Notes under the pieces: generated by a model | The model's input: only the letters and a program-made list of their open reading frames with translations | Database searches by the model: none | Told to the model about the DNA's origin: nothing | Source: an uncultured bacterium | Lineage (GTDB): Bacteria > Cyanobacteriota > Vampirovibrionia > Gastranaerophilales > Gastranaerophilaceae | Direction: 5' to 3' | Assembly (NCBI GenBank): GCA_949299935.1 | Contig: CASGCE010000017.1 | Location: 62,001 to 126,000, forward strand | DNA: 64,000 nucleotides | Translations under genes and position numbers: made by a program | In this document: positions 2,779-64,000 of the stretch, piece by piece | Position numbering within the stretch: the stretch's first letter is position 1 | How the letters are laid out: the number at the start of each line of letters is the position of its first letter

Positions 2779-2786
2779 ATTGTTTA

Positions 2787-5466: not shown

Positions 5467-5487
5467 ATCTGCCCTCTCATAATAAAA

Positions 5488-5559: not shown

Positions 5560-5615
5560 AATATTATTCTATTTTACTTATAAAATTAACATTAAAATCT
5601 CTCAAAGTCAAGCTG

Positions 5616-6620: not shown

Positions 6621-6728
6621 GGTGTCAACACTAACATAAAAAAACTTTTTTTTCAATTTTATGCTTTATCAGGAACAATTTTTTGTAGTTTAATCTCAGT
6701 ATATTATAACAAATTTATTTATATTATA

Positions 6729-6757
6729 TTGTAAAAAAAAATTCAGAATGTTATAAT
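6729..6757 (+). promoter_or_regulatory. promoter of tRNA-Lys
   Basis: TTGTAA (6729-6734), a 17-bp spacer, then TATAAT (6752-6757) preceded by TGT. The tRNA begins 9 bases after the -10 box. Confidence 0.75.
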
Positions 6758-6765
6758 CATCTTGT

Positions 6766-6838
<73 letters not shown>

Positions 6839-6999
6839 TTTTTTATTTCATACTACCAGATATGATTGCAGGTTGTCCGTAAGTCTGAGGTGCCTGTTAT
6901 TTATTCAAAAAATACGGTTGTGGTTATTGTGAAGTGGTATCGTTTAACGCTGCAAGATTCAGGTATACAAAACCAAAAAGCCTAATGTTTAAAACTTGT

Positions 7000-7028
7000 T
7001 TGACACCGAAAAAAATATTTTTTATACT
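7000..7028 (+). promoter_or_regulatory. consensus promoter, leaderless start for 7035
   Basis: TTGACA (7000-7005), a 17-bp spacer and TATACT (7023-7028), then six A bases and the ATG. This near-perfect promoter lies inside the extended reading frame, which rules out the upstream TTG at 6996 as the start. Confidence 0.85.
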
Positions 7029-7034
7029 AAAAAA

Positions 7035-8498: not shown

Positions 8499-8794
8499 TT
8501 TGTTTTTTGCTTGTTCAATCTATTAAGTTTTATACGCTTAATAATTTCTTTTAATTCATTAATTTGACCGATAATTGTAAGTTTTTTGTTGGAGTAATAA
8601 TGCAGCTGTTGTGTTAGCAATTTTTTTTCTGAATACTTAGAGTCTATGTTATATAAATCCAATTCAAGTTGGTTAATATTCTTCTGAAGATCTGCAATTT
8701 TTGCCATTTCAGATTTTGTGAGTTTCAGTATTGGACCGTTGTAATCTTTTAATGGAATTAAGCCTGTAAAGTTTATCGGATTTATTGTAATCAT
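8495..8794 (-). CDS. hypothetical coiled-coil protein, 99 aa
   Basis: Family not recognised. The N-terminus MITINPINFTGLIPL is followed by a long helix (residues ~25-90) with heptad-like Leu/Ile spacing, probably a coiled coil, ending in a basic tail. The NFTG tetrapeptide near the start recalls NFQG in the protein at 12944-13426. An AAAGGTGG ribosome site lies close to the ATG. There is no signal peptide. Confidence 0.65.
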   Translation of the reverse strand: MITINPINFTGLIPLKDYNGPILKLTKSEMAKIADLQKNINQLELDLYNIDSKYSEKKLLTQQLHYYSNKKLTIIGQINELKEIIKRIKLNRLNKQKTN

Positions 8795-8873
8795 ATACCA
8801 CCTTTGGATTGTTTCACATAATCTATGAAAAAACGTAAAAAAAAAATTATTGCTTTTTTAACAAAAATTTACA

Positions 8874-9353
8874 TTATTTTTTTATAGAGAAACGCTCAAG
8901 GCTTCTTAGAAATCTGACAAATTTGGTTTCAACATCGGCGGTGATTGAATCCACCAGAATTGTTTTACAGCCCAAGAGTTTTCCGCATAATATATCGGTA
9001 AGAGGTCTGTCTCCGACGAGGATGCATTCATTAGTTTTAAGATCATACTTGTGCAAAAACTCTTTAGTAGGGCCTGTTTTCGGCTTGCAGGCATTAAAAA
9101 GTAACGGAAAATCGGAAATGTTTTTCACTTTTTCAATATATCCGTGGTTTTTATTATTTGAAATTACAGCAATGAAAAAGTTTTCTTTTACCTTTTTAAG
9201 CCATTGGAGCATTTTTTCTGTATAGGTACCGGATTTTGATGCCATTATTGTACTGTCTAAATCAAAAAGTACAGCTTTTATTCCAAGATTTTTTAATTCT
9301 TCAAGGTCAATGTCATAAATGCTTTTAAGGTTATAATCAGGCTTTAGAAACAT
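8874..9353 (-). CDS. yqeG: YqeG-family HAD phosphatase
   Basis: Small cytosolic HAD phosphatase of the YqeG (TIGR01668-like) family. The typical opening (KSIYDIDLEELKNLGIKAVLFDLDST) contains motif I DLDST near residue 32; ISNN is motif II, and KPKTGPTKEFLHK plus VGDRPLTDI form motifs III and IV. The physiological substrate of YqeG proteins is not well settled. The start codon lies inside the end of the upstream U32 gene (17-bp overlap) and has a GGAG ribosome site, so the pair is translationally coupled. Confidence 0.85.
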   Translation of the reverse strand: MFLKPDYNLKSIYDIDLEELKNLGIKAVLFDLDSTIMASKSGTYTEKMLQWLKKVKENFFIAVISNNKNHGYIEKVKNISDFPLLFNACKPKTGPTKEFLHKYDLKTNECILVGDRPLTDILCGKLLGCKTILVDSITADVETKFVRFLRSLERFSIKK

Positions 9354-10581
9354 ATTCTTTTACTCCTATCGTGCGTGCCAAAGCATATTTATAATCTATC
9401 GGAGCTGTTTCAAATTTTAAATACAGTTCATCATTTGTGTTTCCCAAAGGTTGTTCTGCTCCGTCTTTATTTTTTATTTCTGTAATTTTTGTTATAAATT
9501 GTTCACTTGGCGTTATAATTTCAATTTCGTCATTCAAATGAACTTTGTTTTTAATTTTAACCAAATAATATTGTCCGTTTATTCCGTGAAATTCAAACAG
9601 AAAGTCAGCACCTGCAAGTCCTTTTGAAATATTGTAGCTGTAGCTGTCGGGTTTGTTTTTACCAAGTGCGAATCCCGTTGTGTATCCTCGGTTACCTACC
9701 TTTTGTAATTCTATAAAGTATTTATGCATATCTGCATCAGGATTTATTTTTAATTCATCAAGAGCGTTACGATAAGTTTTTGCGACCGCGGACACGTAAT
9801 ATAGACTTTTTGTTCTGCCCTCAACCTTTAGAGAATCTATACCGGCATCAATTAAATCCTTTAAGTGTTCAACAAGACATAAATCTTTTGGGCTTAAAAT
9901 GTGAGAACCTCTTTCATCTTGATTAATTTCATAAAACTCATTAGGTCTTGTACTTTCAACAAGTTTATAACTCCAACGACAAGGTTGAGAACAATTGCCG
10001 TGATTTGCTTTTCTTTCACCGTCGGTGAAATAGTCACTCAACAGGCACCTCCCCGAAAATGAAACGCATTGCGAGCCGTGAATAAAACTTTCCAGCTCTA
10101 TATCAGGAACCTTACTCCTTATTTCTGCAATATCTTTTATCGCCAGTTCCCTGGCTAAAATTACGCGGCTGGCACCATAGTCCCTCCAAAATTTTACATT
10201 CTCGTAATTCAAGGTGTTTGTTTGGGTGCTTATATGCAAAGGGGTCTTGGGCATGTATTTCTTTATTAAATTAATAATCCCAAAGTCACTTACTATAACT
10301 GCATCAGGGTTGGATTCATTAAGCTTGTCAATTGATTTTTCCAAAAGGCTGATATCCTCGTTAAATGCAAAAATATTCAATGTCAGATACGCTTTTGCGC
10401 CTAATTTGTGTGCCAAGTTAATAGCTGTTTTGAGGTTGTCAAGAGTTATTATTTCACCTTTTCTCATGGCTCTCAGGCTAAAGTCTATAGTGCCCAAATA
10501 TACAGCATTTGCACCATACTTAATCGCATACTCCAGTTTCTCAAGGTTGCCTGCGGGCATTAGTAATTCTACATCTCTCAT
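9337..10581 (-). CDS. trhP: U32 family protein, TrhP-type tRNA hydroxylation
   Basis: Canonical U32 protein. The barrel starts LLMPAGNLEKLEYAIKYGA and the cysteine signature is intact: SFIHGSQCVSFSGRCLLSDY followed by GNCSQPCRW, which together can ligate an iron-sulfur cluster. In E. coli and B. subtilis this group (TrhP/YrrO) is needed for prephenate-dependent 5-hydroxyuridine formation at wobble position 34 of tRNAs. Length 414 aa fits. No Shine-Dalgarno is present; a -10 box lies six bases before the ATG. The downstream yqeG overlaps it. Older annotations call such proteins collagenase-like peptidases; a protease role is less likely. Confidence 0.88.
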   Translation of the reverse strand: MRDVELLMPAGNLEKLEYAIKYGANAVYLGTIDFSLRAMRKGEIITLDNLKTAINLAHKLGAKAYLTLNIFAFNEDISLLEKSIDKLNESNPDAVIVSDFGIINLIKKYMPKTPLHISTQTNTLNYENVKFWRDYGASRVILARELAIKDIAEIRSKVPDIELESFIHGSQCVSFSGRCLLSDYFTDGERKANHGNCSQPCRWSYKLVESTRPNEFYEINQDERGSHILSPKDLCLVEHLKDLIDAGIDSLKVEGRTKSLYYVSAVAKTYRNALDELKINPDADMHKYFIELQKVGNRGYTTGFALGKNKPDSYSYNISKGLAGADFLFEFHGINGQYYLVKIKNKVHLNDEIEIITPSEQFITKITEIKNKDGAEQPLGNTNDELYLKFETAPIDYKYALARTIGVKEYVSKA

Positions 10582-10587
10582 ACCAGA

Positions 10588-10616
10588 ATGATACTTAAAA
10601 GGTAATAAATAATCAA
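10588..10616 (-). promoter_or_regulatory. promoter of trhP, leaderless
   Basis: Read on the minus strand: TTGATT (10611-10616), a 17-bp spacer, TATCAT (10588-10593), then six bases to the ATG ending at 10581. Confidence 0.65.
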
Positions 10617-10685
10617 CCGATTAGGTGATGTTGTTTTTTGATTTGTGTAGAAAATAAAATATATAGAGTTTATCGGAGAAAATAT

Positions 10686-10820
10686 ATGCAAACAATAGAA
10701 AACGCTGCAACTACAATTAAAGAAATCTGGCAATACCAACATCCCATTATGCATACTTGGTTTGTATTGAGTGCTGTATCACTTTGTTCTATGTTTGCTG
10801 TTTTGTATTTTGTTATTTAA
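10686..10820 (+). CDS. small single-pass membrane protein, 44 aa
   Basis: Too short for most gene finders but well supported: GGAG lies at a proper distance before the ATG, and the product has an amphipathic N-terminus followed by one hydrophobic helix (TWFVLSAVSLCSMFAVLYFVI) reaching the last residue. It was not matched to any family. The wider frame opens at a TTG at 10638, but nothing supports that start. It is divergent from trhP. Confidence 0.6.
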   Translation: MQTIENAATTIKEIWQYQHPIMHTWFVLSAVSLCSMFAVLYFVI

Positions 10821-10897
10821 TGTGTAAAATCATTTATAGACAGCAGAATTCTGGAGATTATTTAGCTGTTTGGTGAAAATCTTAAAGTCGAGAGGAT

Positions 10898-12004
10898 TTA
10901 ATCACTAAGACAAACGGCATATACTATATCAGCTCCGGTGCTACCTTGAACATAACCAGTAGCTGTGCCCAAATGTTCAAATATTCTTATATATCGCCCA
11001 GGTCCTAACATGGTATAATCCAAGTCATCTCGATCTACCTCCTCACGTGACCAAACTAAAAACATTACACCTTCATACATCGTAAAACCCAGCTCAGCCA
11101 TTTTTTCATTGTCAATGTTTATGTCACCTCTAGTTTCTTGTCCACCAATACCGGAGGTATTGTATATATAATTCGCGATATCTGCTAATTGATTCATTGA
11201 AGGCATTTTATTTACTCCTCCGCATTCGCTTACTGCACCTGCCCAATAATCGTAATCTTCTAGAGAACAATTTTGTATACCTAACCTATCTTTTTCATTC
11301 ATACATTCGGATCTGGAGAGAGGAGAAGGTTTAAAAGGTGCGCCAAAACAGCTACCACCGATTTCAAAAGCGCAATTGCTTCCTAATTGAGAGACATTAA
11401 TGCTTCGTATGTCTTTACCCGATGTGTTTGGATTTTTAAATCCGTCAGTATCATAAAGCATAGCTAAACAAGAAGTACCGGTAACCCTGTTGGAATAGGG
11501 ATTTTGTGTGCATCCTGGATTATATGCAATCAATCCGGTTGTTCCATTTACAAATTGTACGCCTATAATATCAGTGTCCCAATTCTTTTATCCAAAGTGT
11601 GATGCTGTTTTAATTCTTGACATGTCAACTTCTTTGGGTTCAGCTTCTCCTCCGCCCCAAATAATTTTATCTTCGAAACAAGAAAGTAGATCATTATTTT
11701 CACAAATTTTTGCAGTTTTAAAATGTTTACTCAATTCATTGACAAAATCAGCGGTAGTCCTGTGTCCTGCAAGAGTTTGTTGGGTATTCATGGTTTTTAG
11801 CGCTTCTTCAAGTCGCCTTTCAAATACTTGTGAGGAAGTACTCCAAGCTCTTTCTTGATATTTGGAGACAAGAGTTGGAATAGTAATAGCTGCAACTACT
11901 CCGATTATTCCAAGTGTAATTAAAATCTCAGCCAGAGTAAAAGCTTTAATTAGTGAAGGTATATGGCGTATTGACTGAACTGTTTTTGAATTATCTGTTT
12001 TCAT
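10898..12004 (-). pseudogene. type IV pilin/pseudopilin-like gene broken by one in-frame TAA
   Basis: Two open stretches in the same frame (12004-11588 and 11587-10898) are separated by a single TAA at 11588-11590. The first encodes a prepilin leader and N-terminal helix (KAFTLAEILITLGIIGVVAAITIPTLV), the second the globular domain with four or more cysteines and a DTDGFKNPNTSGKDI motif shared with other pseudopilins here. Reading through gives about 367 aa, a plausible full length. Between the stop and the first downstream Met-type codon, 18 sense codons continue the fold (KNWDTDIIGVQFVNGTTG), so decay is recent. Options are a fresh nonsense mutation, a sequencing error or stop readthrough. 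A ribosome site AAGGAT precedes the ATG at 12004. Confidence 0.8.
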
Positions 12005-12076
12005 ATAATTATCCTTTTTTTTTATTATACCATTACATTTAACTATTGTGCAAAAAATTTTTAAAATTATGATTTA

Positions 12077-12085
12077 TGATAAAAT
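12077..12085 (+). promoter_or_regulatory. extended -10 promoter, leaderless start for 12092
   Basis: TGA then TAAAAT (12080-12085), six bases (AGCTTT), then the ATG at 12092. No ribosome-binding sequence is present. Confidence 0.65.
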
Positions 12086-12091
12086 AGCTTT

Positions 12092-12916
12092 ATGAAAAAG
12101 TTAAAATTAGTTTTGGGTTATTTAACACTATTGTTGATTGCAATAAGTATGTTGTATCCTTTTTTTGTAATGATTAATTTATCCTTTGTTAAGAATAGTG
12201 AAATCTTCTTACAAACCGATAAAATATTTCATTTTCCTTTGACTTTTGAAAATTATATAAAAGTTTTCGGACAAATTCCTTTGAGTAAATATTTTATGAA
12301 TAGTCTTATTGTTGCGTTGTTAACGACTTTGGGGCAGGTTATGATTGCGGCTATGGCGGGATATGCTTTTGCAAGATTAAAATTTAAATATCGAGATTTG
12401 CTTTTTTTGATATTTCTTATAACAATGCTTATTCCACCTCAAGTAAACATTATACCGCTTTTCTTTTTGATGAGGGAGTTGCATTTGATAGATACCTATC
12501 AAGCACTAATTTTACCGGGACTTTTTGGAGGGTTAGGTGTTTTTATGTTAAGGCAGTATTTCTTGACTATGCCGAAAGATCTTGAAGAATCGGCCCGAAT
12601 TGATGGTTGCAATTTGTTTGAGACCTTTTTCAAAATAGCGTTGCCGCTGGCTTTACCCGCTATTGTTACACTTGCAATATTTACTTTTGTCTCAACTTGG
12701 AATAGTTTTATGTGGCCGTTAATTGTTACAAATTCCGAGGGGATGCGAACCTTGCCTGTCGGGCTTGCTATTTTTAAAGGTAGTTTCAGAGAAGTTACGC
12801 TTTGGGGCGAACTTTTATCTTGCTCGGTTATTTGTACTTTGCCGGTTATTTTTGTTTTTTTATTTGGTAAAAAATATTTTATAAATGATATTCTACAAGG
12901 TGGCGTTAAAGAATAA
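12092..12916 (+). CDS. sugar ABC transporter permease (MalG/UgpE type)
   Basis: Inner-membrane permease subunit of a carbohydrate-uptake-1 ABC importer. Six hydrophobic helices are visible, and the cytoplasmic EAA loop that docks the ATPase is clear (EESARIDGCNLFETFFKIALP) near residue 170. Length 274 aa matches MalG-type proteins. The usual partners (MalF-type permease, binding protein, MsmX/MalK ATPase) are not adjacent, so this subunit must pair with products encoded elsewhere. A leaderless-type start follows a TAAAAT box. A bidirectional terminator follows the gene. Confidence 0.88.
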   Translation: MKKLKLVLGYLTLLLIAISMLYPFFVMINLSFVKNSEIFLQTDKIFHFPLTFENYIKVFGQIPLSKYFMNSLIVALLTTLGQVMIAAMAGYAFARLKFKYRDLLFLIFLITMLIPPQVNIIPLFFLMRELHLIDTYQALILPGLFGGLGVFMLRQYFLTMPKDLEESARIDGCNLFETFFKIALPLALPAIVTLAIFTFVSTWNSFMWPLIVTNSEGMRTLPVGLAIFKGSFREVTLWGELLSCSVICTLPVIFVFLFGKKYFINDILQGGVKE

Positions 12917-12945
12917 AAAAAACAGGGTTTAATCCCTGTTTTTTT
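12915..12945. terminator. bidirectional intrinsic terminator
   Basis: CAGGG (12923-12927), loop TTTAAT, CCCTG (12934-12938), flanked by an A run on the left and a T run on the right, so it works for both the permease gene and the convergent gene at 12944-13426. Confidence 0.85.
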
Positions 12946-13426
12946 ATTTCCTAAATTTACTGAAAAGCCAATCTAATCCGATTAAACTTCCTGCTACAAT
13001 TGCACCCCATTTACCTGCTTGCCTCCATTTGAAACTTTTTAATGCCTTATTGAATAATGAAGGTGCCGCTTCTGTAAAAGTCTTTGTTTCCTGATTGAAA
13101 TACCTTACGTATTTATTTGCTTTGTCTGCAGTTGTGTTCATTGCTTTTACAAAACTATCCTTAAACTGTTTTGAGTTTTTCAGAGGATTTGAATCTAGCA
13201 AATATCCGGCACCGGCACCTGCTGCACCGCTTAATATTACAGCGCCCATCCCAAGACCCCTTTTCGGCGATGCTTGTGCTGCGCCTTGAAAATTTATGTT
13301 GCTTTGTCCATTTACATTTGCTGCTGGGAGTTCAGATGTGCTGTATGCCTTGTACATAAAGTCATCATTTGATGCAGTGTTCAAATACCCATAATTCCCA
13401 TAATTTAAAGGTATGTTTGATACCAT
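12944..13426 (-). CDS. hypothetical protein with glycine-rich hydrophobic segments
   Basis: Family not recognised, 160 aa. The N-terminal 50 residues are Asn/Tyr/Ser-rich and include NINFQG. A glycine/alanine-rich hydrophobic stretch (MGAVILSGAAGAGAGYLL, about residues 60-78) and a C-terminal helix (WGAIVAGSLIGLDWLF) suggest two membrane-inserted segments flanking a Lys-rich helical region. No enzyme motif is seen. The ribosome site is weak (AGGTTAGG). It is convergent with the ABC permease across a shared terminator. Confidence 0.6.
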   Translation of the reverse strand: MVSNIPLNYGNYGYLNTASNDDFMYKAYSTSELPAANVNGQSNINFQGAAQASPKRGLGMGAVILSGAAGAGAGYLLDSNPLKNSKQFKDSFVKAMNTTADKANKYVRYFNQETKTFTEAAPSLFNKALKSFKWRQAGKWGAIVAGSLIGLDWLFSKFRK

Positions 13427-13512
13427 ATTTAACCTAACCTTTCTGTAAAAAATTACAAACTAACCTATATCTATAAAAAAAAATGCTTCCCAAAGATTGC
13501 TTGTTTGTAAAG

Positions 13513-14790
13513 TTATATTAACAAACTGGAAAAAAGGCTTTCAAATTCAGGAAATGAGATCTTTACCCACTCAAAGTCTTTTATTAAAATTTCTTTTTGG
13601 CAAATCAATCCGGCTACGTAAAGACACATTGCAAGTCTGTGGTCGTGGTATGTTTCAACCTCAACGCCGCCTTTGAGGTTTGTTTTTCCGTTTATAACCA
13701 TTCCGTCGGATGTTTCTTCTATGCTAGCACCGAGTTTTTTAAGCTCGGTAACAACGGATTTTATCCTGTCGGATTCTTTATTCCGTAAGTCTGCTGCATC
13801 TTTTATAATGGTTTGTCCCGATGCTTGTGTGGCTATAATCGCAAGTATCGGAATTTCATCAATCATACGTGGAATTATGCTTTTTTCGATTGTGCTTGAC
13901 TTTAGTTCGGAATAGCTTATTAGCATATCTCCGGTTAATTCATTTGAAACGGTACGTTTGTCTAAAATTTTTATGTCGGCTCCCATTTTTTGTAAAACTT
14001 CCAGTAATCCCGTTCTTGTAGGATTTAATCCTACATTCCTTAGTATGATTTTTGAGTTCGGGACTATAAGTGCGGCACCTATAAAATATGCCGCGCTTGA
14101 AAAATCCCCGCATATTTCTATTTCTTTTGGGGTTAATTCGCATTTAGTGACTGTTGTACAAAGACCTTCGGATTTTATATTGGCATTCATATATGAAAGC
14201 AACAGTTCTGTGTGGTTTCTTGATAAATATGGCTCAATTACGGTTGTTTCACCATCTGCCATAAGACCGGCAAGTAATATTGAAGATTTTACTTGGGCTG
14301 ATGCTATGGGGGTATTGTATTTTATTCCGTGTAATTTATTACCACAAATTTCCAAAGGTGCGGTGCCTTTATTAGATTTTATTTTAGCTCCCATAAGTGA
14401 AAGCGGTGCTATAATCCTTTGCATGGGACGCGCACTTAGGCTTGAATCTCCGCTAAGTGTAGAATTGAATTTCTGCCCCGCCATTATTGCAGCCATAAGT
14501 CGCATTGTTGTGCCTGAATTGCCGCAGTTTAAGTCAGTTGAAGGTTTTTTTAATTCGCCGGCCGATGTTATGTGTAATTCACCATCATTTTTATACTCTG
14601 TTATTATGCCGAGTTTTTTACATATCTTTAGCGAAGAATAAGGATCTTGTCCGTCTGAAAAATTCTTGATTACATAATGTCCCTTAGTCAATGTCGATAT
14701 TATCACAGCTCTGTGCGAAATCGATTTGTCTGAAGGTATTTCTAATTCACCTTTTAATCTTTTGTCTTGTTTTGAAATCTTTTTGTCCAT
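13513..14790 (-). CDS. aroA: 3-phosphoshikimate 1-carboxyvinyltransferase (EPSP synthase)
   Basis: Sixth step of the shikimate pathway: joins shikimate-3-phosphate and phosphoenolpyruvate. Visible landmarks include the N-terminal ELEIPSDKSISHRAV with the PEP/S3P-binding Lys, NCGNSGTTMRLMAAIMAG, SAQVKSSILLAGL, and the C-terminal NKESDRIKSV and YHDHRLAMCLYVAGL. Length 425 aa is normal and no key residue is missing. SGDSSLSARPM has Ser at a position that is Gly or Ala in different EPSPS classes, so glyphosate sensitivity cannot be judged from this. It has a leaderless-type start after TGTTAAACT. The TPR protein gene ends 20 bp upstream on the same strand. Confidence 0.95.
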   Translation of the reverse strand: MDKKISKQDKRLKGELEIPSDKSISHRAVIISTLTKGHYVIKNFSDGQDPYSSLKICKKLGIITEYKNDGELHITSAGELKKPSTDLNCGNSGTTMRLMAAIMAGQKFNSTLSGDSSLSARPMQRIIAPLSLMGAKIKSNKGTAPLEICGNKLHGIKYNTPIASAQVKSSILLAGLMADGETTVIEPYLSRNHTELLLSYMNANIKSEGLCTTVTKCELTPKEIEICGDFSSAAYFIGAALIVPNSKIILRNVGLNPTRTGLLEVLQKMGADIKILDKRTVSNELTGDMLISYSELKSSTIEKSIIPRMIDEIPILAIIATQASGQTIIKDAADLRNKESDRIKSVVTELKKLGASIEETSDGMVINGKTNLKGGVEVETYHDHRLAMCLYVAGLICQKEILIKDFEWVKISFPEFESLFSSLLI

Positions 14791-14796
14791 ATGTTA

Positions 14797-14805
14797 AGTT
14801 TAACA
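14797..14805 (-). promoter_or_regulatory. extended -10 promoter of aroA, leaderless
   Basis: On the minus strand TGT then TAAACT, six bases (TAACAT) and the ATG ending at 14790. The hexamer is weaker than the others in this set. Confidence 0.45.
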
Positions 14806-14809
14806 CGCT

Positions 14810-16009
14810 TTACCAGAAAAAGTAAGGATGATAATATCTGTACGGTTGGTAATAATAGTACCTGTTATAATTCATTTGTTGTTGCAGTAAGATAAGTCTT
14901 TGTAATATAAGCTCTTGTTCTTTTTGTTTTTTAGCGTCTTGAATTTCTTTTAGTTTGTCTTTAATTTCTTGTGTTTTTTTGTCTTCAGATGAATTTAATG
15001 CCTCGAAACATTTCACCAGGTTTGTGCCTTGATATTTGCGAATACAATTGTTTGCTGTGTTAAAAAATTCGTCCTGACGTTTGGACCAGTTCTCTACGTA
15101 AAAATCTATATCCGGTGAATTGTTGATGTAAATTTTGCTCCAATCGGGTTTTACAACAAAATCGGTTATTCTTTTGTAGGCATTGTCAATTTTAGGCTGT
15201 TCAAGTTTCGCTATCATGTTATCAACGGTGTATAGTATAATATCCGGATTATTAAGCAGCAGGTTCTTCGCTTTGTACAAATAATTGAGTCTTAAAATCT
15301 TATCAGAGCAATTTTGTGCTGCACGAATATAATTTTGCGGATTATCCGGTTTTAGTTTTATAAGTATTTGCGTATATTCATATGCCTTTTTGTTATTTTG
15401 AAGATTGTAATTTGCTATGTACATTAATTCGGTTGCATCATAAAAATTATTATCGTATTCTGTAATTTTAGAAGCATATTTAATTACATTATTATTATCG
15501 TTTAGTTTAAGGTAAGTTTGTGCGACAATTAGATAATTACGTTTTACTATTTTCGGGTCGGTTATTGTTTCAAATTCTTTTACCGCTTGAGAATATCTAC
15601 CCATATGGACACAACTGCGAGCAATTATGTCGGCAAGCATATCCTTAGGTAAAATGTTTTCAGTGTTTAGTTCTCTTAACTTAGTTGCATAATCATATAC
15701 CTTTTGCGATTGAAAATTGGCAGAGTATAAAAACATGAGTTCATATAATGCAGGCATATAATCAGGATACTTTTTTAGAATTTTTTCGTAATATTTGATT
15801 TTTGCTTCTGCTTTATTTGTATTTTCAGCTTTTTGCATATATTTTTTGGTATAATTGTGTTCCAATCTACCGGATTTGTTTTGAGATTTAGGATTATTTA
15901 ACGTGAATTTCATTGTAGCTTGATTGAAGGTATATGGTCTAATATCTTCTACAGCCATAACTGTACACAAAGTATGGAAAAATATTGCAAATAGTAGAAA
16001 CTTTTTCAT
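14810..16009 (-). CDS. secreted TPR-repeat protein
   Basis: A signal peptide (KKFLLFAIFFHTLCTVMA) is followed by several tetratricopeptide-like helical repeats between about residues 55 and 260, then a charged Lys/Glu/Gln-rich coiled segment and a C-terminus rich in Tyr, Arg, Pro and His (YYYYQPYRYYHPYFFW). Probably a periplasmic or surface scaffold; no catalytic motif is seen. The frame opens at a TTG at 16036, but AAGGAG stands 8 bases before the ATG at 16009, where the signal peptide begins, so 16009 is the start. It is the third secreted repeat or pilin-like protein in the first 16 kb. Confidence 0.7.
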   Translation of the reverse strand: MKKFLLFAIFFHTLCTVMAVEDIRPYTFNQATMKFTLNNPKSQNKSGRLEHNYTKKYMQKAENTNKAEAKIKYYEKILKKYPDYMPALYELMFLYSANFQSQKVYDYATKLRELNTENILPKDMLADIIARSCVHMGRYSQAVKEFETITDPKIVKRNYLIVAQTYLKLNDNNNVIKYASKITEYDNNFYDATELMYIANYNLQNNKKAYEYTQILIKLKPDNPQNYIRAAQNCSDKILRLNYLYKAKNLLLNNPDIILYTVDNMIAKLEQPKIDNAYKRITDFVVKPDWSKIYINNSPDIDFYVENWSKRQDEFFNTANNCIRKYQGTNLVKCFEALNSSEDKKTQEIKDKLKEIQDAKKQKEQELILQRLILLQQQMNYNRYYYYQPYRYYHPYFFW

Positions 16010-16135
16010 ACACTCTCCTTGAGCCGAGGATAACAAAATTTTATCTAAAAGTCAATAAATCAAAATATTTGTGCTAATATATAAGTAAATTGAATTCAAA
16101 TTGAACATGAAAAGCTGAAATCTGATAAACTCAAT

Positions 16136-16222
16136 AGAGGGGTGTCCGAGAGGTTTAAGGTGCAATCTTGGAAAGGTTGTGTGGGAGCAATTCCACCGTG
16201 GGTTCGAATCCCATCCCCTCTG
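16136..16222 (+). tRNA. tRNA-Ser (GGA)
   Basis: Acceptor AGAGGGG pairs perfectly with CCCCTCT, discriminator G, long variable arm (TGTGGGAGCAATTCCACC), T arm GGTTCGAATCC, and anticodon loop TTGGAAA giving GGA. CCA is not encoded; a T run follows at once. A TTGAAC and TGATAAACT pair lies upstream as a likely promoter. Confidence 0.95.
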
Positions 16223-16646
16223 TTTTTTAAGGTTGATTTTTGTTTCAATTTATTATGATTGTTCATTTGGATCCATTTTAGAAGAATTTAAAGATTTAGA
16301 TTTTACACCGGTATTGTTAATGCATGTGACAAAATACAAAATTCTGACGGTTTTTGCCTTTGAAGTTTATATTCTCTTCACTAAAAATCTAAGTGATTAT
16401 TGAATTTAAAGTTGTTGTGACATAGCCATTTTTACCTATGGTTACATAAAGGCTCAAACAAATTGCCAGATAAGAAGGAAGTGTTTTTTATATAACCTGT
16501 TTGCAAAACAGGCGATGCAGATAATTTGTTTTATTAAAATTGGTTATATTTTGAATAAAATTTACAAAGCTTAAATAAACATGCAAATTATTTTATTTTG
16601 GAGTTTTAAATAATTGTCAAATATTTAAGTTAGGAGACATAAGATA
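16223..16646. other. 424-bp intergenic region, no gene recognised
   Basis: AT-rich and stop-dense in all frames. It holds a short perfect hairpin (CCTGTTT / AAACAGG, 16497-16512) without a T tract and an AGGAG ribosome site at the right edge serving 16647. Nothing else was identified. Confidence 0.5.
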
Positions 16647-17405
16647 ATGAAAATAACGTCTTTAGCCTCATCAGTCGGAGCTTGTAAGACTAATTACGGA
16701 AAGCATAAGATACCAAGATTTATTTATCACCTTACAAATAAAACTAATTATGAATCAATGTTGAAAGACGGTTTTATAAAAATGTCGCTTGATAACTTGG
16801 GTGGTGATGGTGTTTTTATGGTCGAACTTACAAATTTCTTTAAAAGGTGGGGGAATAACAAAGCATGGCAAAATGATTCATTGCAAAAAAAACTTATAAA
16901 TCATGCCATGCAAGAAGATTCAAGTCTTGTTATTTTAAAGATACCAACAGGAAAACTAAATCATGATTTGTTAAGAGTTAGAAGTCAAAATAAACTTTTT
17001 AGTTGGTTGTACTCACCACATTGTAATTATGTGCGTAATGAAGTTGGTCAATCCATGAAAAGTTTACCAAGTACATCGCGTTTTAATTGGGAAAGATTAA
17101 TGTATGAAAGGTTAAAAGAATATTTTAGTAATAAAGAAGTTGATAAAAATATTCTCCATATAATGGAGGGGAATTGCGCAAAAAATGCAAAATCCTATAA
17201 GCAAAAAAAAGAGGCAATAGAATATATTTATAGAGATAACATTCCAATGACAAATGTTCAAAAGATAGGGGAAATAGACTTTAAAGATATTACAGGCTTA
17301 TTATTAAGTTTTGATTATGATGCCCAAAGACCTGTTAGATCTATTTTCGTTAATTTATTAGAAGGTAATCCGGAAGTTAAGGGTGCAAAATTGCTCAATT
17401 TTTAG
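16647..17405 (+). CDS. hypothetical protein, possible ADP-ribosyltransferase fold
   Basis: Not matched to a named family. The start of the domain (IPRFIYHLTNKTNYESMLKDGF) follows the pattern of many ADP-ribosyltransferase-fold proteins such as DarT and KptA: a Tyr-His-x-Thr strand, a helix, then x-x-Leu/Met-x-x-Gly. GGDGVFMVEL could be the next strand and EAIEYIYRDNIPMTNVQKIG resembles the late strand with a catalytic Glu before Ile-Pro. These are pattern similarities only. No signal peptide, 252 aa, good AGGAG ribosome site. Isolated between tRNA-Ser and a glutaredoxin gene; no antitoxin-like partner is adjacent. Confidence 0.45.
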   Translation: MKITSLASSVGACKTNYGKHKIPRFIYHLTNKTNYESMLKDGFIKMSLDNLGGDGVFMVELTNFFKRWGNNKAWQNDSLQKKLINHAMQEDSSLVILKIPTGKLNHDLLRVRSQNKLFSWLYSPHCNYVRNEVGQSMKSLPSTSRFNWERLMYERLKEYFSNKEVDKNILHIMEGNCAKNAKSYKQKKEAIEYIYRDNIPMTNVQKIGEIDFKDITGLLLSFDYDAQRPVRSIFVNLLEGNPEVKGAKLLNF

Positions 17406-17593
17406 TTTCATACAAGGCTTTCAAGCATGTAGGAAATTTCTTGTAAACAATAGAAAGGTCATATCTTTGAGAGAATTTTTCATATGTTGATTAAGTTATG
17501 ATTTGACAAAATATAGATAAACTTATAAAATTATTAGGTTGCAAAATTAATTAAATAAAAGCTTATTGTCTGTGATATTATAAGGAGTTTATA

Positions 17594-17854
17594 ATGAATA
17601 AAATAGAAATTTACACATCACAAACTTGTCCTTACTGCGTTAAAGCGAAGAAACTGCTTAAAACTCTCGGTCTTGAATATACGGAAACAGATGTTTCGAA
17701 TTCTTTTGAAGAAATGGTTACAAAATTTGAGGAACGATTTAATAAAAAAGTAATGACAATACCCCAAATTGTCATAAACGGTAAGTACGTTGGCGGTTTT
17801 GATGACCTGGATATTTTGTATAAGTCAGGTAAACTTAGCGAATATTTGAAGTAG
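17594..17854 (+). CDS. grxC: glutaredoxin (GrxC type)
   Basis: Small cytosolic thiol-disulfide oxidoreductase. The dithiol active site CPYC lies at residues ~11-14 after a short beta strand, TIPQIVINGKYVGGFDD contains the cis-Pro and the glutathione-binding Gly-Gly, and 86 aa is the usual length. AAGGAG precedes the ATG. It is convergent with the flavodoxin-like reductase gene, which ends 2 bp away. Confidence 0.92.
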   Translation: MNKIEIYTSQTCPYCVKAKKLLKTLGLEYTETDVSNSFEEMVTKFEERFNKKVMTIPQIVINGKYVGGFDDLDILYKSGKLSEYLK

Positions 17855-17855
17855 G

Positions 17856-18482
17856 TTATCGTATAAAATTTGTAGATATTTTTTCAACAGGTGTAGGACT
17901 AATAATACCTTTTTCTTTACCGGCCTCAATACATTTTAAGATCCAAGCCATGTTTTGTCCCAAAACTTGCATTGTCTGCATACCTTCTTTATCCTGAATA
18001 ACTTCCTGCGGTGCATTGCCATGGACCATATTCCAATAATTTGAAGATATAACAGGCATGTTGCAAATTGTAAAATGTTTTATTATTGCATCAATTGATG
18101 CTGTAGTTCCAGCGCGTCTTGCTGAAACTATTGCTGCTGCCGGTTTATACGCGAAAGCGTTTTTACCGGCATAAAACAGCCTATCCAAAAATGATAATAA
18201 CCTACCACTAGGGTGCGCAAAATATACAGGTGATCCGAAAATAAATCCATCGGATTTTTTAGCTTTTTGAATAACTTCGTTCACAACATCATCTTCAAAA
18301 ATGCACTTACAATCATTTTGCCGACACCAGCCGCAACCCGTACAATCTCGAATGGCGTTAGAGCCTAATTGGATAATTTCCGTATCAATACCTTCCAAAG
18401 TTAAAATTTTGGATATTTCACATAAGGCTGTATATGTACAACCGTTTTCTCTGTTACTGCCGTTAATTAATAATACTTTCAT
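17856..18482 (-). CDS. NADPH-dependent FMN reductase / flavodoxin-fold oxidoreductase
   Basis: Flavodoxin-like fold: MKVLLINGSNRENGCTYTAL holds the FMN phosphate loop, CTGCGWCRQNDCKC is a four- to five-cysteine segment seen in many iron-sulfur flavoprotein-like or multimeric flavodoxin reductases, and FGSPVYFAHPSGRLLSFLDRLF is a family hallmark. It likely transfers electrons from NAD(P)H to an acceptor; the acceptor is unknown. Length 208 aa. AAGAGG precedes the ATG. It is downstream of, and probably cotranscribed with, the O-acetyltransferase and the AsmA-like gene. Confidence 0.85.
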   Translation of the reverse strand: MKVLLINGSNRENGCTYTALCEISKILTLEGIDTEIIQLGSNAIRDCTGCGWCRQNDCKCIFEDDVVNEVIQKAKKSDGFIFGSPVYFAHPSGRLLSFLDRLFYAGKNAFAYKPAAAIVSARRAGTTASIDAIIKHFTICNMPVISSNYWNMVHGNAPQEVIQDKEGMQTMQVLGQNMAWILKCIEAGKEKGIISPTPVEKISTNFIR

Positions 18483-18492
18483 ATAAACCTCT

Positions 18493-19044
18493 TTAAATTT
18501 TTTTTATTACTTTACATGGATTGCCGACCGCAACGGTATTAGCCGGGATATTTTTAGTGACAACACTTCCTCCTCCTATTACACAATTATCCCCTATTAT
18601 AACCCCGGGCATTACGCATACATTGCCGCCAAACCATACGTTATTACCAACCGTTATAGGTTTTGCAAATTCAATTCCGTTGTTCCGTGTTTGATAATCA
18701 AGCGGGTGTTCAGCAGTATAAAATCCGCAATTCGGACCTATAAATACATTGTTTCCAAATTTTACCTTTGCACAATCCAAAATTACCAGATTATGATTTG
18801 AATAGAAATTTTCACCTATTTCAATATTGTATCCGTAATCGCAATAGAATGTGGGATTTATATTAAATTTTTTTGGTGTTTTTCCAAGAATTTTACTTAT
18901 TATACAAGACATTTTCTTAGATTTTGTGAAAGGTGTATTGTTAAATTCATAACAAAGTTGCTTGCACCTTAAACGAGCATCCTTAAGATGCTCATCTTCA
19001 GCGTTATAACACTCGCCTTTAATCATTTTTTCCCATTCAGTCAT
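18493..19044 (-). CDS. maltose/galactoside-type O-acetyltransferase
   Basis: Acetyl-CoA-dependent sugar O-acetyltransferase of the Maa/LacA/NodL group. The N-terminal cap domain (TEWEKMIKGECYNAEDEHL) and the left-handed beta-helix with hexapeptide repeats (VFIGPNCGFYTAEHPLD, containing the catalytic His; WFGGNVCVMPGVIIGDNCVIGGGS) are intact. Length ~183 aa is standard. The frame is open to 19116, but the family start and an AAAAGGAT ribosome site fix the ATG at 19044, which overlaps the end of the AsmA-like gene by 8 bp, implying translational coupling. The acceptor sugar is unknown. Confidence 0.88.
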   Translation of the reverse strand: MTEWEKMIKGECYNAEDEHLKDARLRCKQLCYEFNNTPFTKSKKMSCIISKILGKTPKKFNINPTFYCDYGYNIEIGENFYSNHNLVILDCAKVKFGNNVFIGPNCGFYTAEHPLDYQTRNNGIEFAKPITVGNNVWFGGNVCVMPGVIIGDNCVIGGGSVVTKNIPANTVAVGNPCKVIKKI

Positions 19045-59384: not shown

Positions 59385-59411
59385 GTTTAATGCTGCAAAA
59401 ATACATTAAAC
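59385..59411. terminator. weak hairpin between convergent genes
   Basis: GTTTAATG (59385-59392) and CATTAAAC (59404-59411) can pair around an 11-base loop, overlapping the stop of the leftward gene. There is no T tract, so it is a weak terminator candidate at best. Confidence 0.35.
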
Positions 59412-60752
59412 TTCGCGCCTTACGTCAACAACCTGCCCCGTAAGATCTGAAAGCAAGGTTCTTAAACTTGCTTCTGCGACTTTTTCTGGAGATAACAGAC
59501 TGCCTTCAGGCTCTTTGCCAAAAGCCTGAAATCTCATCGGAGTTGCAGTTCTTTCGGGATTTATAACATTTACTCTGATTTTATCACTGCTTAATTCTTC
59601 AGCAAGTGCTTGTGCTAAATTTACTATTCCGGCCTTGGTAGACGAATAAGTTGAATAAAGCGCACGCCCCCTTGTATATGAACTTGATGTAAACAGCAAA
59701 ATCCCGCCCTTTGTTTTTTGCAAATAAGGTATACTTGCTTTGGCAACGTTAATTGAGCCCAGATAATTTATTTCAATATCTTTTCTTACATCTTCAATTT
59801 CTCGGTCAAGGAGTTTCCCCATTTTTAAAATTCCGGCAGAATTTATTACATAATCAATTTTACCGGTTTGTTTGTAAACACCCTCAAGAAATTCGCATAT
59901 GCTTGAATATGAAGTAATATCACAACCCGTACGCGTTGATGCAGCAAAAACTTTTGCCCCGAGCTGCTTACCCAAATCAAAAATACATTGACCAATACCG
60001 CTTGTACCGCCAAAAATCACAATAACTTTATCTGCAATACTTGATAAAGAAGTATTATCAGGATATACAGAACTTCTGATCTGGAATAATCTGTCTGCCA
60101 TGAAAATATCTTCCGGATATGTTATTTTAATATTTTCACCCGAACCTTCAACAACATAAACTTTTGCCAGATTATATTTGACTATTAAACCGCAGTCATC
60201 TGTAAAATTATTATCATTTTTTGATAATTCATGAGCTTTTTTAATAAGTGACAATTTAAAACACTGAGGAGTTTGACCGCGCCTTAATTCTGCACGATTT
60301 GGAATACTATCTATAATGTCATCCTTAACTTTTATAATAGTATCCGCCGAAGGTATTGCAACATCAATTGCATCATATTTTTTTAGTGCCTGTACACAAT
60401 TTTCTATAATTTTTTCAGTTAAAAACGGTCTTGCACAATCGTGAATAATTACATTTGCTTCATCATCTTCTATTGAGAATATTGCAATGGAAGAACTCTC
60501 TTTCCTTGTCGCACCGCCATTTAACAGTTTTACAACTTTCTTATAATTATTTTTTAATAAAAGATTTTCCGCAATGTGCCTGTAATCAGGGGTTATCACC
60601 AATATTATTTCGTCAATATTGCCTGATTTTTCAAAAATTTCTATAGTATGTTCCAAAACAGTTTTTCCTGCAATTTTAATAAATTGTTTTGGTATATCAC
60701 TGTTATAGCGGCTTCCGGTGCCTGAAGCCAATATTATTCCATAATTTTTCAT
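59406..60752 (-). CDS. bifunctional CDP-ribitol synthase (cytidylyltransferase-SDR fusion)
   Basis: Two fused enzymes, 448 aa. Residues ~1-225 are an IspD/TarI-type cytidylyltransferase (ILASGTGSRYNSDIPKQF at 7-24, HDCARPFL, RRGQTPQCF). Residues ~242-448 are a short-chain dehydrogenase with GGTSGIGQ at 248-255, NSAG at 304-307, Ser 356-358, and Y369/K373, so the catalytic tetrad is intact. This arrangement is that of Bcs1/Acs1 from Haemophilus influenzae capsule loci, which reduces ribulose-5-phosphate to ribitol-5-phosphate and activates it with CTP. The end, NPERTATPMRFQAFGKEPE, also fits. AAGGA precedes the ATG, 2 bp after the GT8-LicD gene. Confidence 0.86.
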   Translation of the reverse strand: MKNYGIILASGTGSRYNSDIPKQFIKIAGKTVLEHTIEIFEKSGNIDEIILVITPDYRHIAENLLLKNNYKKVVKLLNGGATRKESSSIAIFSIEDDEANVIIHDCARPFLTEKIIENCVQALKKYDAIDVAIPSADTIIKVKDDIIDSIPNRAELRRGQTPQCFKLSLIKKAHELSKNDNNFTDDCGLIVKYNLAKVYVVEGSGENIKITYPEDIFMADRLFQIRSSVYPDNTSLSSIADKVIVIFGGTSGIGQCIFDLGKQLGAKVFAASTRTGCDITSYSSICEFLEGVYKQTGKIDYVINSAGILKMGKLLDREIEDVRKDIEINYLGSINVAKASIPYLQKTKGGILLFTSSSYTRGRALYSTYSSTKAGIVNLAQALAEELSSDKIRVNVINPERTATPMRFQAFGKEPEGSLLSPEKVAEASLRTLLSDLTGQVVDVRREV

Positions 60753-60754
60753 AT

Positions 60755-62602
60755 TTATTCTTCCTTACAACATTTCAACTCTTCTATTATTCGCTTTTCT
60801 TCCTCTGACAAATCCAAAAACATACTGTGACCGGTCCCTATCTTTTTAGGATATGCCATGTAATCACCGTATAATCTTGATAAAAAAGCATCCGGATTAT
60901 TCAGACACGGAAATTCAATTCCTTCAAATTCAATACTCTTTAGCGGATTTAATACTTCATAGTGTGTAAACCAATTTTTCCACTGGTGGCTAAAATCTAA
61001 ACCCCATACATAATCACCTTTATCATCCGCAACTTCGTTTGTCAAGACTTTTTCAGTCATAAACGAACATATCACTTTTCGTACCTTACTTGAAGATTCT
61101 TTTACCTTAAACATTTTTTCTAATTCTGTGCGTAAAGACTTTAAGTATAGAGTTTTTTGAAGTTGTTCTTCAAGGGTTAATCTTTTACCATATATATCCC
61201 AAGGAAAAATATCAACAAATAGGTGTGGACATTTTTTGTGCTGTACCTTAATGATACATTGTGCAAAATTCCTTTCGCTTACTACATAATCGGCAAAAAT
61301 ATCAGGGTTTCTTGAGGATTTTTTAAAAGCATCAATAATTTTTTCGTAATCATCACGCAGCATCGCAACATCAATATCATCATCCCAAGGAATAAAACCC
61401 TTGTGACGCACAGCACCTAATAAAGTTCCGCCATCAAGCCAATATTTAAGCCCGTTTTGCTTACAAACATAATCCAATTCCTTTAATAACACCAAATTCG
61501 CAAGCTGAATATCCCTTGCTTGACCCTCTGCAGGTGGTATGGTCATTATATCAATATTATTCTTTTTGTAGTAATAATATAAATTCTGATTTCTAATTTT
61601 AGCAAACTCCCTTTTCGTAAATTTTATCTTTAGTCCAAACAAACGAATCATATAATGAGTTTGTCCATAATTTCCCACAGAGAACATATTTTTTAAGTTA
61701 TTTTTTAAATATGTATACCAAACTGCTTTATAAAACGCTGGACGCAACCAAAATAAAGGTCGATAAATCAAATACCTGAGAATTGATGCAGTTTGGTTAT
61801 CTTTTGTCCAATGCTTATGTTCTTTTTCACTCAATCTCCAAGGGGTCATTTGTAAATATTTGAAGTATAATCCCCTGTGAAAACTGAATGATGCGTAATG
61901 CCAAGGTTTCAACTTTGCAGTATAATGAATAATTTTTGGGCAACTTGTGTAGCTTGAACGATTTATAAAATTGCTGGACTGAACATTCCATTCATCTTCT
62001 AAAATTTGAATACTGTCTTTACAAACCTCGTTAATTATTTCTTGATCACCGGTCTTGATTGTCTCAATATGTTCTTTGGTCCATGCCAAAAACCTTTGTT
62101 CCAACTTTTGCTTACGCATATTGTCTAAATCCATTAGAAGCATACCTGAATTTACGTAGGTAGGATTTGATTTGAGTCTTTTCTTTTTAATATCCAATAC
62201 ACCAGCCAGAGGTTTTTCTCCAATCTGCTTATTAAAAAGCTCCGCTAATGATGTTGTAACAACTATATCACAATCTAAATAAATTACTCTGGCAATGTCC
62301 GGCAAAAGAGATGGCAACTTTAGTCGATAATAAGATGTTATATTCAAGTATTTATGTGTCTTTACATTTTTATAATCATCAAACAAATTTTCATCTATAT
62401 TAATAAAACGAATATCACATGTTTTTATTGATTTAAGAGAAAGAATTTCACCTTTTCTAGCTTCATTAATTCCCCCGTCAATAATATGGAAAGATAGTTC
62501 ATCATCACTATTGGCATTCGCAAGAATAGAAGCAATCACAACGCCAGCATATTTTGAGTAATTATCATCGCAAGCCAAACATACATTAATTTTATAAGTC
62601 AT
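60755..62602 (-). CDS. GT8 glycosyltransferase fused to a LicD phosphotransferase
   Basis: Residues ~1-275 are a family 8 glycosyltransferase: VCLACDDNYSKYAGVVIASIL opens it, VIYLDCDIVV (DxD at 110-112) binds metal and nucleotide sugar, NSGMLLMDL is the next motif and IHYTAKLKPWHY (225-236) closes the site. A linker (~275-360) follows. Residues ~365-615 are a LicD/fukutin-like domain, with LDGGTLLGAVRHKG and WDDDIDVAMLRDDYE at 389-420, carrying the DxD. LicD-type enzymes move phosphocholine or ribitol-phosphate from a CDP carrier to a glycan; here the adjacent CDP-ribitol synthase makes ribitol-phosphate the likely donor. No membrane segment; cytosolic action is likely. Confidence 0.86.
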   Translation of the reverse strand: MTYKINVCLACDDNYSKYAGVVIASILANANSDDELSFHIIDGGINEARKGEILSLKSIKTCDIRFINIDENLFDDYKNVKTHKYLNITSYYRLKLPSLLPDIARVIYLDCDIVVTTSLAELFNKQIGEKPLAGVLDIKKKRLKSNPTYVNSGMLLMDLDNMRKQKLEQRFLAWTKEHIETIKTGDQEIINEVCKDSIQILEDEWNVQSSNFINRSSYTSCPKIIHYTAKLKPWHYASFSFHRGLYFKYLQMTPWRLSEKEHKHWTKDNQTASILRYLIYRPLFWLRPAFYKAVWYTYLKNNLKNMFSVGNYGQTHYMIRLFGLKIKFTKREFAKIRNQNLYYYYKKNNIDIMTIPPAEGQARDIQLANLVLLKELDYVCKQNGLKYWLDGGTLLGAVRHKGFIPWDDDIDVAMLRDDYEKIIDAFKKSSRNPDIFADYVVSERNFAQCIIKVQHKKCPHLFVDIFPWDIYGKRLTLEEQLQKTLYLKSLRTELEKMFKVKESSSKVRKVICSFMTEKVLTNEVADDKGDYVWGLDFSHQWKNWFTHYEVLNPLKSIEFEGIEFPCLNNPDAFLSRLYGDYMAYPKKIGTGHSMFLDLSEEEKRIIEELKCCKEE

Positions 62603-62819: not shown

Positions 62820-62896
<77 letters not shown>

Positions 62897-62936: not shown

Positions 62937-62983
62937 AGTCTTTTTAGGGTGTATATGTAATAAAGTGAGTGGTTTGCGTAGGG

Positions 62984-63008
62984 CAGATGGTGCGATTATT
63001 TCGGGCAA
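62984..63008 (+). repeat. transposase-site repeat 1 (direct)
   Basis: 25-bp motif with core GATGGTGCGATTATTTCGGG; first of three direct copies at the left end of the Mu-like element. Confidence 0.8.
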
Positions 63009-63036
63009 TCGGCTTGTGTTGCGGATTTCAGGGGTA

Positions 63037-63056
63037 GGAAATAATCAAACCATGTG
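63037..63056 (-). repeat. transposase-site repeat 2 (inverted)
   Basis: The minus strand reads CACATGGTTTGATTATTTCC, 17 of 20 matching the direct copies but in opposite orientation. Confidence 0.65.
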
Positions 63057-63094
63057 AACCGTAATTACTCTTTTTACTCTTTTTCTACTCGGCA

Positions 63095-63119
63095 CAGATG
63101 GTGTGATTATTTCGGGCAA
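63095..63119 (+). repeat. transposase-site repeat 3 (direct)
   Basis: Core GATGGTGTGATTATTTCGGG; differs from copy 1 by one base in the core. Confidence 0.8.
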
Positions 63120-63171
63120 AATGATTACAACCCTCTTTCTGCTTGTGTTTTAAGGCAATTAAGGCTTGGTA

Positions 63172-63196
63172 CAAATGGTATGATTATTTTGGGCAA
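63172..63196 (+). repeat. transposase-site repeat 4 (direct)
   Basis: Core AATGGTATGATTATTTTGGG; four differences from copy 3 over 25 bp. Confidence 0.75.
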
Positions 63197-63312
63197 GTGA
63201 GTCGTTTGAGGTTTTTGAAAATTCTGCCGTTCTGTTAAATTTTTTAATTGATACAAAACCGACATACATTCATTCTTGGCGAGGTATAGCGAGCCTTAGA
63301 ATGATGGATGCA

Positions 63313-63406
63313 AAACTCTAACATACAAGCAATCTTTGATTGCGTAAGTATGTTAAGAGTTGTTGCCAATGCTCGGAAGTGGTGTTCCAATTCTTCATCT
63401 TCCGAG
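63313..63406. promoter_or_regulatory. stem-loop cluster before the transposase gene
   Basis: AAACTCTAACATAC (63313-63326) and GTATGTTAAGAGTT (63348-63361) form a long stem with a nested GCAATC/GATTGC pair; then CTCGGAAG (63372-63379) and CTTCCGAG (63399-63406) form a second perfect 8-bp stem ending 16 bp before the ATG. The second could hide the ribosome site or act as an operator. Confidence 0.55.
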
Positions 63407-63422
63407 TTAAGGTGTGTGTACC

Positions 63423-64000
63423 ATGAATGAATATGTAACTATTAAAGAAATCGCACAGGCTAAGGGATTAAAGAGTACCCGCTCAATCCGAATGGAAATA
63501 AACAAACCTGAAAGCAAATATATTTCAAGAGAAGTCAAAGTTAACGGCGGTATCTCATACGAAATATTGTTTTCAAGTTTAGAACCTGAATTACAGCAAA
63601 AACTTCGGGAATGCGAAACCAAATCAACGGCAATAGTTCCCCTTAATTACAAACCGCCGACTGTAACGGATAAAGCAAGATTGACGGCAAATCACAGAAT
63701 GAACATTGTTAAAGCCGCACTTGAACATAGAAATAAATATCCGAGAATAAAAGAGGCTGATGCTGAATTTTTAGATCTGTATAATTCAGGTTTGTATTTA
63801 CCAAAAGCATACGAATTTCTGGGAAGTATTTCAATAGGAACATTGAGAAGATACATACAAGCCTACAAGAAAACCGGCAACGCAGAATCCCTAATACCCC
63901 AATACAAAATAACAAAGCAAGGTGAGTATAACAGCATTTTAGATGACAATATGAAAAAAGTTCTGCTTGCTCTTTTACTTCATCAGAATAAATTCGGATA
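63423..64000 (+). CDS. MuA-type transposase, N-terminal part (partial)
   Basis: Open to the window edge; 192 codons visible. Residues 1-65 match the Mu DNA-binding winged-helix domain (YVTIKEIAQAKGLKSTRSIR, then GGISYEILFSSLEPELQQKL, as in MuA/MuR repressor-like ends), and ~85-165 the second Mu DNA-binding domain (KARLTANHRMNIVKAALEH, GTLRRYIQAYKKTG). The DDE catalytic core would lie beyond the window. MuA binds repeats at both ends of the element and does the strand transfer. AAGGTG precedes the ATG. The stem-loop cluster sits directly upstream. Confidence 0.82.
   Translation, partial: MNEYVTIKEIAQAKGLKSTRSIRMEINKPESKYISREVKVNGGISYEILFSSLEPELQQKLRECETKSTAIVPLNYKPPTVTDKARLTANHRMNIVKAALEHRNKYPRIKEADAEFLDLYNSGLYLPKAYEFLGSISIGTLRRYIQAYKKTGNAESLIPQYKITKQGEYNSILDDNMKKVLLALLLHQNKFG

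Follow-up and report, generated by a model that had tools for sequence, protein, structure and literature searches.

A Mu-like virus of gut Gastranaerophilales whose left end is formed by repeats behind a tRNA-fMet gene

The repeats that follow a tRNA-fMet gene in the window, the whole stretch of 64,000 nucleotides analyzed here (bases 62001-126000 of contig C17, 1.68-Mb genome G000), belong to a Mu-like virus of gut Gastranaerophilales and form its left end. Two results go beyond the earlier note on this DNA. The element has two transposase/ATPase pairs, so it is not simply Mu, and its position after a tRNA gene is a targeting rule across the family. We consider it likely that the window contains the left end of a Mu-type prophage in which a first transposase, its ATPase, and a third protein (A1-B1-C) serve tRNA-targeted insertion, and a second pair (A2-B2) is the lytic Mu machine. 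Among named records, close copies occur in genomes of Candidatus Gastranaerophilales (Melainabacteria) that come from animal guts. Every genome used here is a metagenome assembly or was treated as one.

The left end and its gene order

The earlier note had proposed a Mu-like element just after the tRNA-fMet gene, with three direct and one inverted copies of a ~25-bp motif before a transposase gene. Both proposals were borne out. The tip is at 62956, the four copies, far above chance, lie at 62977-63196, and a MuA/TnsB-type DDE transposase comes after them. Past the window edge, contig C17 runs another 7.6 kb, and positions there are given as window equivalents.

62820..62896, + strand: tRNA-fMet, i.e., tRNA-Met(CAT), the target gene; the element is on its 3' side and has the same orientation, the family-wide pattern
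62951..62955, no strand: GTATA, the putative 5-bp target duplication; the matching copy lies just past the right tip ..CTTTTACA on contig C34, near C34:94373
62956..62976, + strand: left tip 5'-TGTAATAAAGTGAG, from alignment with the G014 copy and a left-tip survey
62977..63008, + strand: end site L1, direct
63038..63061, - strand: end site L2, inverted
63088..63119, + strand: end site L3, direct
63165..63196, + strand: end site L4, direct
63414..64000 in the window, + strand, ending at window-equivalent 65510: A1, MuA/TnsB-type DDE transposase, 698 aa
65455-66207 (window-equivalent): B1, AAA+ ATPase, 250 aa
66167-66841 (window-equivalent): C, undescribed protein, 224 aa
67189-67413 (window-equivalent): Cro-like gene, 74 aa
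67406-69349 (window-equivalent): A2, second MuA, 647 aa
69333-70217 (window-equivalent): B2, second MuB, 294 aa
70372-70824 (window-equivalent): GemA
71570 (window-equivalent): end of contig C17

Alignment with a 95%-identical copy placed the start of the element sequence in the TGTA repeats at ~62950-62956. The tip, TGTAATAAAG, was set at 62956, 59 bp past tRNA-fMet, on the ground that the GTATA before it is also present beyond a right end at another place in the window's genome; TGTA at 62950 is the alternative. Since two candidate tips were compared with two right ends, the probability of a chance GTATA match is ~4/1024. The window's own prophage is spread over contigs C17, C27, and C34, which are linked by synteny and GTATA only.

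The direct sites L1, L3, and L4 are 81-84% identical to the reference copy over 32 nt, and the inverted site L2 is 83% complementary. The 11.6-kb contig end was scanned with the pattern TGRTNNGATTATTTYGGGC, and the four end sites were the only matches. By chance, 0.17 matches are expected, and four were reached in 0 of 200 shuffles.

At 59406-62602 of the window, two fusions were recognized from sequence only, one of a cytidylyltransferase with a short-chain dehydrogenase and the other of a glycosyltransferase with a LicD-like domain. These predicted fusions suggest a ribitol-phosphate-type surface decoration.

The order on the contig is A1, B1, C, the Cro-like gene, A2, B2, a 54-aa protein, GemA, and two small proteins. 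A1 starts with GTG at 63414 or ATG at 63423. The "both Mu DNA-binding domains" that the earlier note ascribed to it were not flagged by Pfam, which gave Mu-transpos_C and a weak rve match, but the whole protein (residues 2-684) matches PHROG 310 (Mu-type transposase, E=4.5e-110). The note had also named a DDE core and a MuB-like ATPase as things to look for to the right, and both are present: the catalytic triad of A1 (D272, D339, and E384) is invariant in nine relatives, and B1, a MuB/TnsC-like ATPase with matches to TniB and AAA_22, follows A1. The profile families of A1 and B1 are phrog_310/296. A2 matches DDE_2 and HTH_Tnp_Mu_2, and its DDE residues are intact, also in small relatives; B2 matches AAA_22. 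Among solved structures, the nearest to A1 is TnsB, not MuA, the nearest to B1 is TnsC, and the nearest to A2 is MuA (4fcy). The idea that regulation differs from that of Mu was correct in spirit: a Cro-like gene separates C from A2, and it is not on the stretch from the end to A1.

Complete and smaller relatives

G193 possesses a complete copy of 52.4 kb with the same gene order as the window element, and it is the one dual-transposase phage that was delimited completely. With the loci L103+L135+L136 joined, it spans 1655-54011 and begins 108 bp past tRNA-fMet. Between its ends are genes for terminase, portal, major head protein, head protease, tail sheath, tape measure, and baseplate, and the virion genes are followed by type III restriction-modification and a DrmD-like helicase. 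This one copy has a complete phage gene set. Inverted sites were detected at its right end, and the element is flanked by a perfect 5-bp duplication, AAAAT. Phage structural genes and the same repeats at the other end, which the earlier note had expected of such an element, were therefore both found: the former also as a homologous block on contig C27 of the window's genome, the latter as the same site, inverted, at distal ends with 5-bp duplications.

On C27 (L280:4544-12925), glycosyltransferase, aminotransferase, and nucleotidyltransferase genes (surface-polysaccharide genes) adjoin the phage structural block. These are either right-arm cargo or host DNA.

The 95%-identical copy, in G014, is also located behind tRNA-fMet and is 19.9 kb long. 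Its flanks are unlike those of the window, and from TGTA onwards the element sequence is nearly identical. Its right end has two inverted sites and a terminal TACA, and TCAAG flanks both ends. It has the same ends and A1-B1-C, no phage genes, and a cargo of type III restriction-modification, AbiJ-like, and DrmD-like proteins. Perfect 5-bp duplications were also detected in G241 (CTCAA), G213 (GTGGG), G024 (TTTAA), and G086 (CCAGC). Right ends were sought for G067, G110, G222, G276, and G188, and were not found.

The elements of G241, G213, G024, and G086 are 14-21 kb long, retain A1-B1-C-A2, and have no virion genes; in G024, A2 is broken into two reading frames. A small-terminase-like gene is often present, followed by restriction or other defence cargo. 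In G241 and L052, the TerS-like genes (136-137 aa) match Pfam Phage_terminase above the cut-off, and structural genes, looked for beside them, were not seen. The TerS-like proteins may redirect packaging, and the 14-21 kb elements could be satellites of the phage.

An alternative is that A1-B1-C is a plain transposon that carries a Mu-like phage (A2-B2 and the genes that follow) as chance cargo, with separate ends of the phage's own inside. G014 and others, which combine A1-B1-C with restriction cargo and no phage genes, agree with this, as do prophages with A2-B2 but without A1-B1-C and the resemblance of A1 to TnsB and of A2 to MuA. However, on independent contigs from many species, A2-B2-GemA are found at a constant ~3.9 kb after A1-B1-C, and the two sets diverge in parallel. 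At the borders of G193, no ends other than those of the outer element were found, and a perfect duplication encloses the whole phage. In addition, an intact A2 is kept in small elements without phage genes. Chance cargo is therefore the less likely reading. Under the preferred one, a prophage with two transposition machines, the Cro-like gene, A2 (MuA), and B2 (MuB) would probably act in replicative transposition during the lytic cycle. Elements with and without A2 share one set of ends, a point against this putative separate job of A2.

Several smaller arrangements were also observed. In the window's genome (G000:C35, L010:5760-7500), a 1.7-kb element that shares the family's ends and is flanked by ATAAA duplications is located behind tRNA-Asn. 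Its cargo consists only of an HxlR-type regulator and a metallo-hydrolase, and it is a transposase-less derivative, presumably mobilized in trans. C35:5778-5818 was considered as the right end of the window element and was rejected, since it closes this separate element. The G133 element (L153+L152+L123, ~1983-18913) has at its borders not 5 bp but a direct repeat of 23 bp, AGCAATTGACAAACTGCTCCTAC. At L006:18339-19418, an A1 fragment adjoins the right end of another element (tandem remains), and upstream of A1 in L105, a left tip that is behind a tRNA 3' fragment comes directly after a right end. One tRNA seems to host a stack of several elements.

Position behind tRNA genes and protein C

Targeting downstream of tRNA genes is well supported. 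An A1 relative was found in 163 of 288 family genomes. Forty loci and then 79 independent named loci were fetched, and 58 of the 79 had at least 2.6 kb upstream. A tRNA or tmRNA gene was present within these 2.6 kb at 46 of the 58 loci, in the same orientation in every case (46/46); by chance, a tRNA is expected at ~3% per locus. At the 48 loci with full flanks, 32 tRNAs were located at 0-1 kb with no opposite-strand tRNA there, and the whole 3-9 kb range contained only four same-strand tRNAs. The 62 distinct sites were behind genes for tRNA-Met, Ser, Phe, Asn, Arg, Asp, Ala, Gln, Gly, and His and for tmRNA; none of them was at Leu, Val, Thr, Pro, Lys, Glu, or Ile. The tips are 36-145 bp past the tRNA, with a median of 66 bp for 28 confident tips. 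Thus, insertion is orientation-specific and occurs just beyond a conserved gene, and it is not near-random as expected of a Mu-like phage.

In G301, the empty site of a tmRNA insertion is contiguous across the junction. We rejected the possibility that the tRNA gene is part of the element: the tRNA is separated from the tip by the duplication, and the empty site exists. Among distant A1 relatives (~43-50% identical), no tRNA was present within ~3 kb upstream in the 20 fetched; of the distant relatives from the window's genus, a few (L057, L058, and L059) are behind tRNA-Ile or tmRNA. Control prophages with A2 only are mostly without an upstream tRNA. The remaining 12 of the 58 loci had no tRNA within 2.6 kb. 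At some of these, cargo separates the tip from A1 or a tRNA fragment is present, which accounts for part of the 12 only; other structured RNAs were sought with Rfam at the tRNA-less sites, and none was found.

In the right flank of G086, the element is followed by a second copy of the 3' half of its tRNA-Met, the kind of trace that an integrase-type island leaves. At this site, two kinds of mobile element share one tRNA.

Our model is as follows. A1 would bind the end sites of an element with TGTA..TACA ends. B1 and C would choose a spot 36-145 bp downstream of the 3' end of a tRNA or tmRNA gene, the left end would face the tRNA, and strand transfer would duplicate 5 bp. C would probably couple a target signal common to many tRNA genes to B1. 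A1-B1-C would act like Tn7 at attTn7, with C in place of TnsD/TniQ.

C is a putative DNA-binding protein. Its gene, always the third, follows B1 in all relatives with a complete region. The N-terminal winged helix of C is conserved and the remainder is variable, a layout like that of TnsD-type selectors; in distant groups the length is 141 to 568 aa. The predicted fold (pLDDT 89.9) consists of the winged helix, a second helix-turn-helix, a beta hairpin, and helices. C gave no Pfam match above the cut-off, no significant PDB fold match, and no match among 50,697 phage records; one 48%-identical protein was found in a virome assembly. The 414-aa C variants at L184:5800-7044 and in L186-L190 have an inserted MuA-like helix-turn-helix. 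Since the elements that carry them are not at tRNA genes, they may have another target.

The association of C with tRNA type was analyzed at 34 sites in three tests, uncorrected for host relatedness. Nearest neighbours in C agreed in tRNA type in 15 of 34 cases (7.2 after shuffling, p=0.005), B1 was intermediate (p=0.066), and A1 did not track tRNA type (p=0.31). In L100/L261, which are at tRNA-Ser, A1, B1, A2, and B2 are close to those of the window, and C is 42% identical. Conversely, nearly identical C proteins were found in the window element at fMet and in L095 at Asn. Thus, C is not specific for one tRNA, and recognition must therefore be generic or partly external.

This last result also fits target choice by B1 or by host factors such as transcription or tRNA-processing complexes, with C as a regulator or end-binding protein. 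Regulators often contain winged helices, a MuA-like helix-turn-helix occurs in some distant C proteins, and the weak B1 association points the same way. However, tRNA type tracks C and not A1, and in L100/L261 it is C that differs among otherwise nearly the same proteins. We regard target choice without C as doubtful, and favour C as the putative selector.

Survivorship was also considered: A1 would insert randomly, the space behind tRNA terminators would be safe, and other insertions would be lost. All sites are intergenic and past the tRNA terminator, tRNA genes are general gathering points of islands, and some of the tRNA flanks also hold tRNA 3' fragments of integrase-type islands. However, safety alone does not predict the 46/46 orientation and the 36-145 bp range, many other intergenic spaces are as safe, and related elements with other C types lack the pattern in the same hosts. 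Survivorship is thus quite improbable as the source of the pattern, and targeting is retained. An IS21-like composite without phage relation was rejected, since the 52-kb copy with virion genes sits between one pair of ends.

Comparison with known systems

As in Mu and other transposable phages, the family has a left DDE transposase with a MuB-like ATPase, GemA, Mu-type head and contractile-tail genes, and several transposase sites per end, one of them inverted at the left. A2/B2 are a MuA-type DDE transposase and a MuB-type ATPase, virion genes are on the same element in G193, and 5-bp target duplications surround G193 and six further elements. Unlike Mu, the family has two transposase/ATPase pairs and an extra gene C. 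Moreover, A1 sits immediately after the left end, the Cro-like gene comes only ahead of A2, the right end carries long defence cargo, and insertion at tRNA genes is in one orientation. The nearest phage records to A1 are ~26-31% identical.

Tn7-like transposons share the TnsB/TnsC-like pair, 5'-TGT..ACA-3' ends, the 5-bp duplication, orientation-controlled insertion just past a gene, defence cargo, and a modular third protein. The Tn7-like CAST I-B2 and I-D home to tRNA genes through TnsD (PMC10293859). In contrast, near-identical elements of the window family use many different tRNA genes, and some copies are complete phages. In seven genomes, PF06527 (TniQ/TnsD) gave no match, as in the positive control, and PF08722 (TnsA) gave none over the cut-off, as in the control genomes; one sub-threshold PF08722 match, in G086, is outside the element. 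The 14-21 kb elements resemble PICI-type satellites in their lack of virion genes, small-terminase-like gene, and defence cargo, but have DDE transposase ends and a 5-bp duplication in place of a tyrosine integrase. A literature search on dual-transposase phages, Mu-type satellites, and Gastranaerophilales prophages, with thin coverage of subscription papers and preprints, gave nothing relevant.

We tentatively propose, as a possibility, that C represents a new TniQ-independent selector class whose module was adopted by Mu-type phages and supports the first transposable-phage satellites. If so, C would guide the TnsB/TnsC-like pair to some feature that tRNA genes have in common, Mu-type phages would have taken up the module for safe lysogeny beside their own MuA/MuB, and the satellites would carry restriction systems and their own small terminase. 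One virus would then unite two superfamily branches, random lytic transposition (Mu) and safe-site targeting (Tn7). A target-choice protein family outside TniQ would be added, of interest for gene-insertion tools because tRNA genes are present in every genome. The understudied gut lineage would provide a testable case of phages, defence islands, and satellite-like elements that swap one insertion module.

TnGBS targets promoters. Fixed-distance insertion beside transcription units is shared by the window family with TnGBS (Mutator-type DDE, PMC3942029) and with Dictyostelium TRE5-A (PMC5391098), which also uses tRNA genes. However, the transposition enzymes of both are unrelated to those of the window family, and TRE5-A is a eukaryotic retrotransposon.
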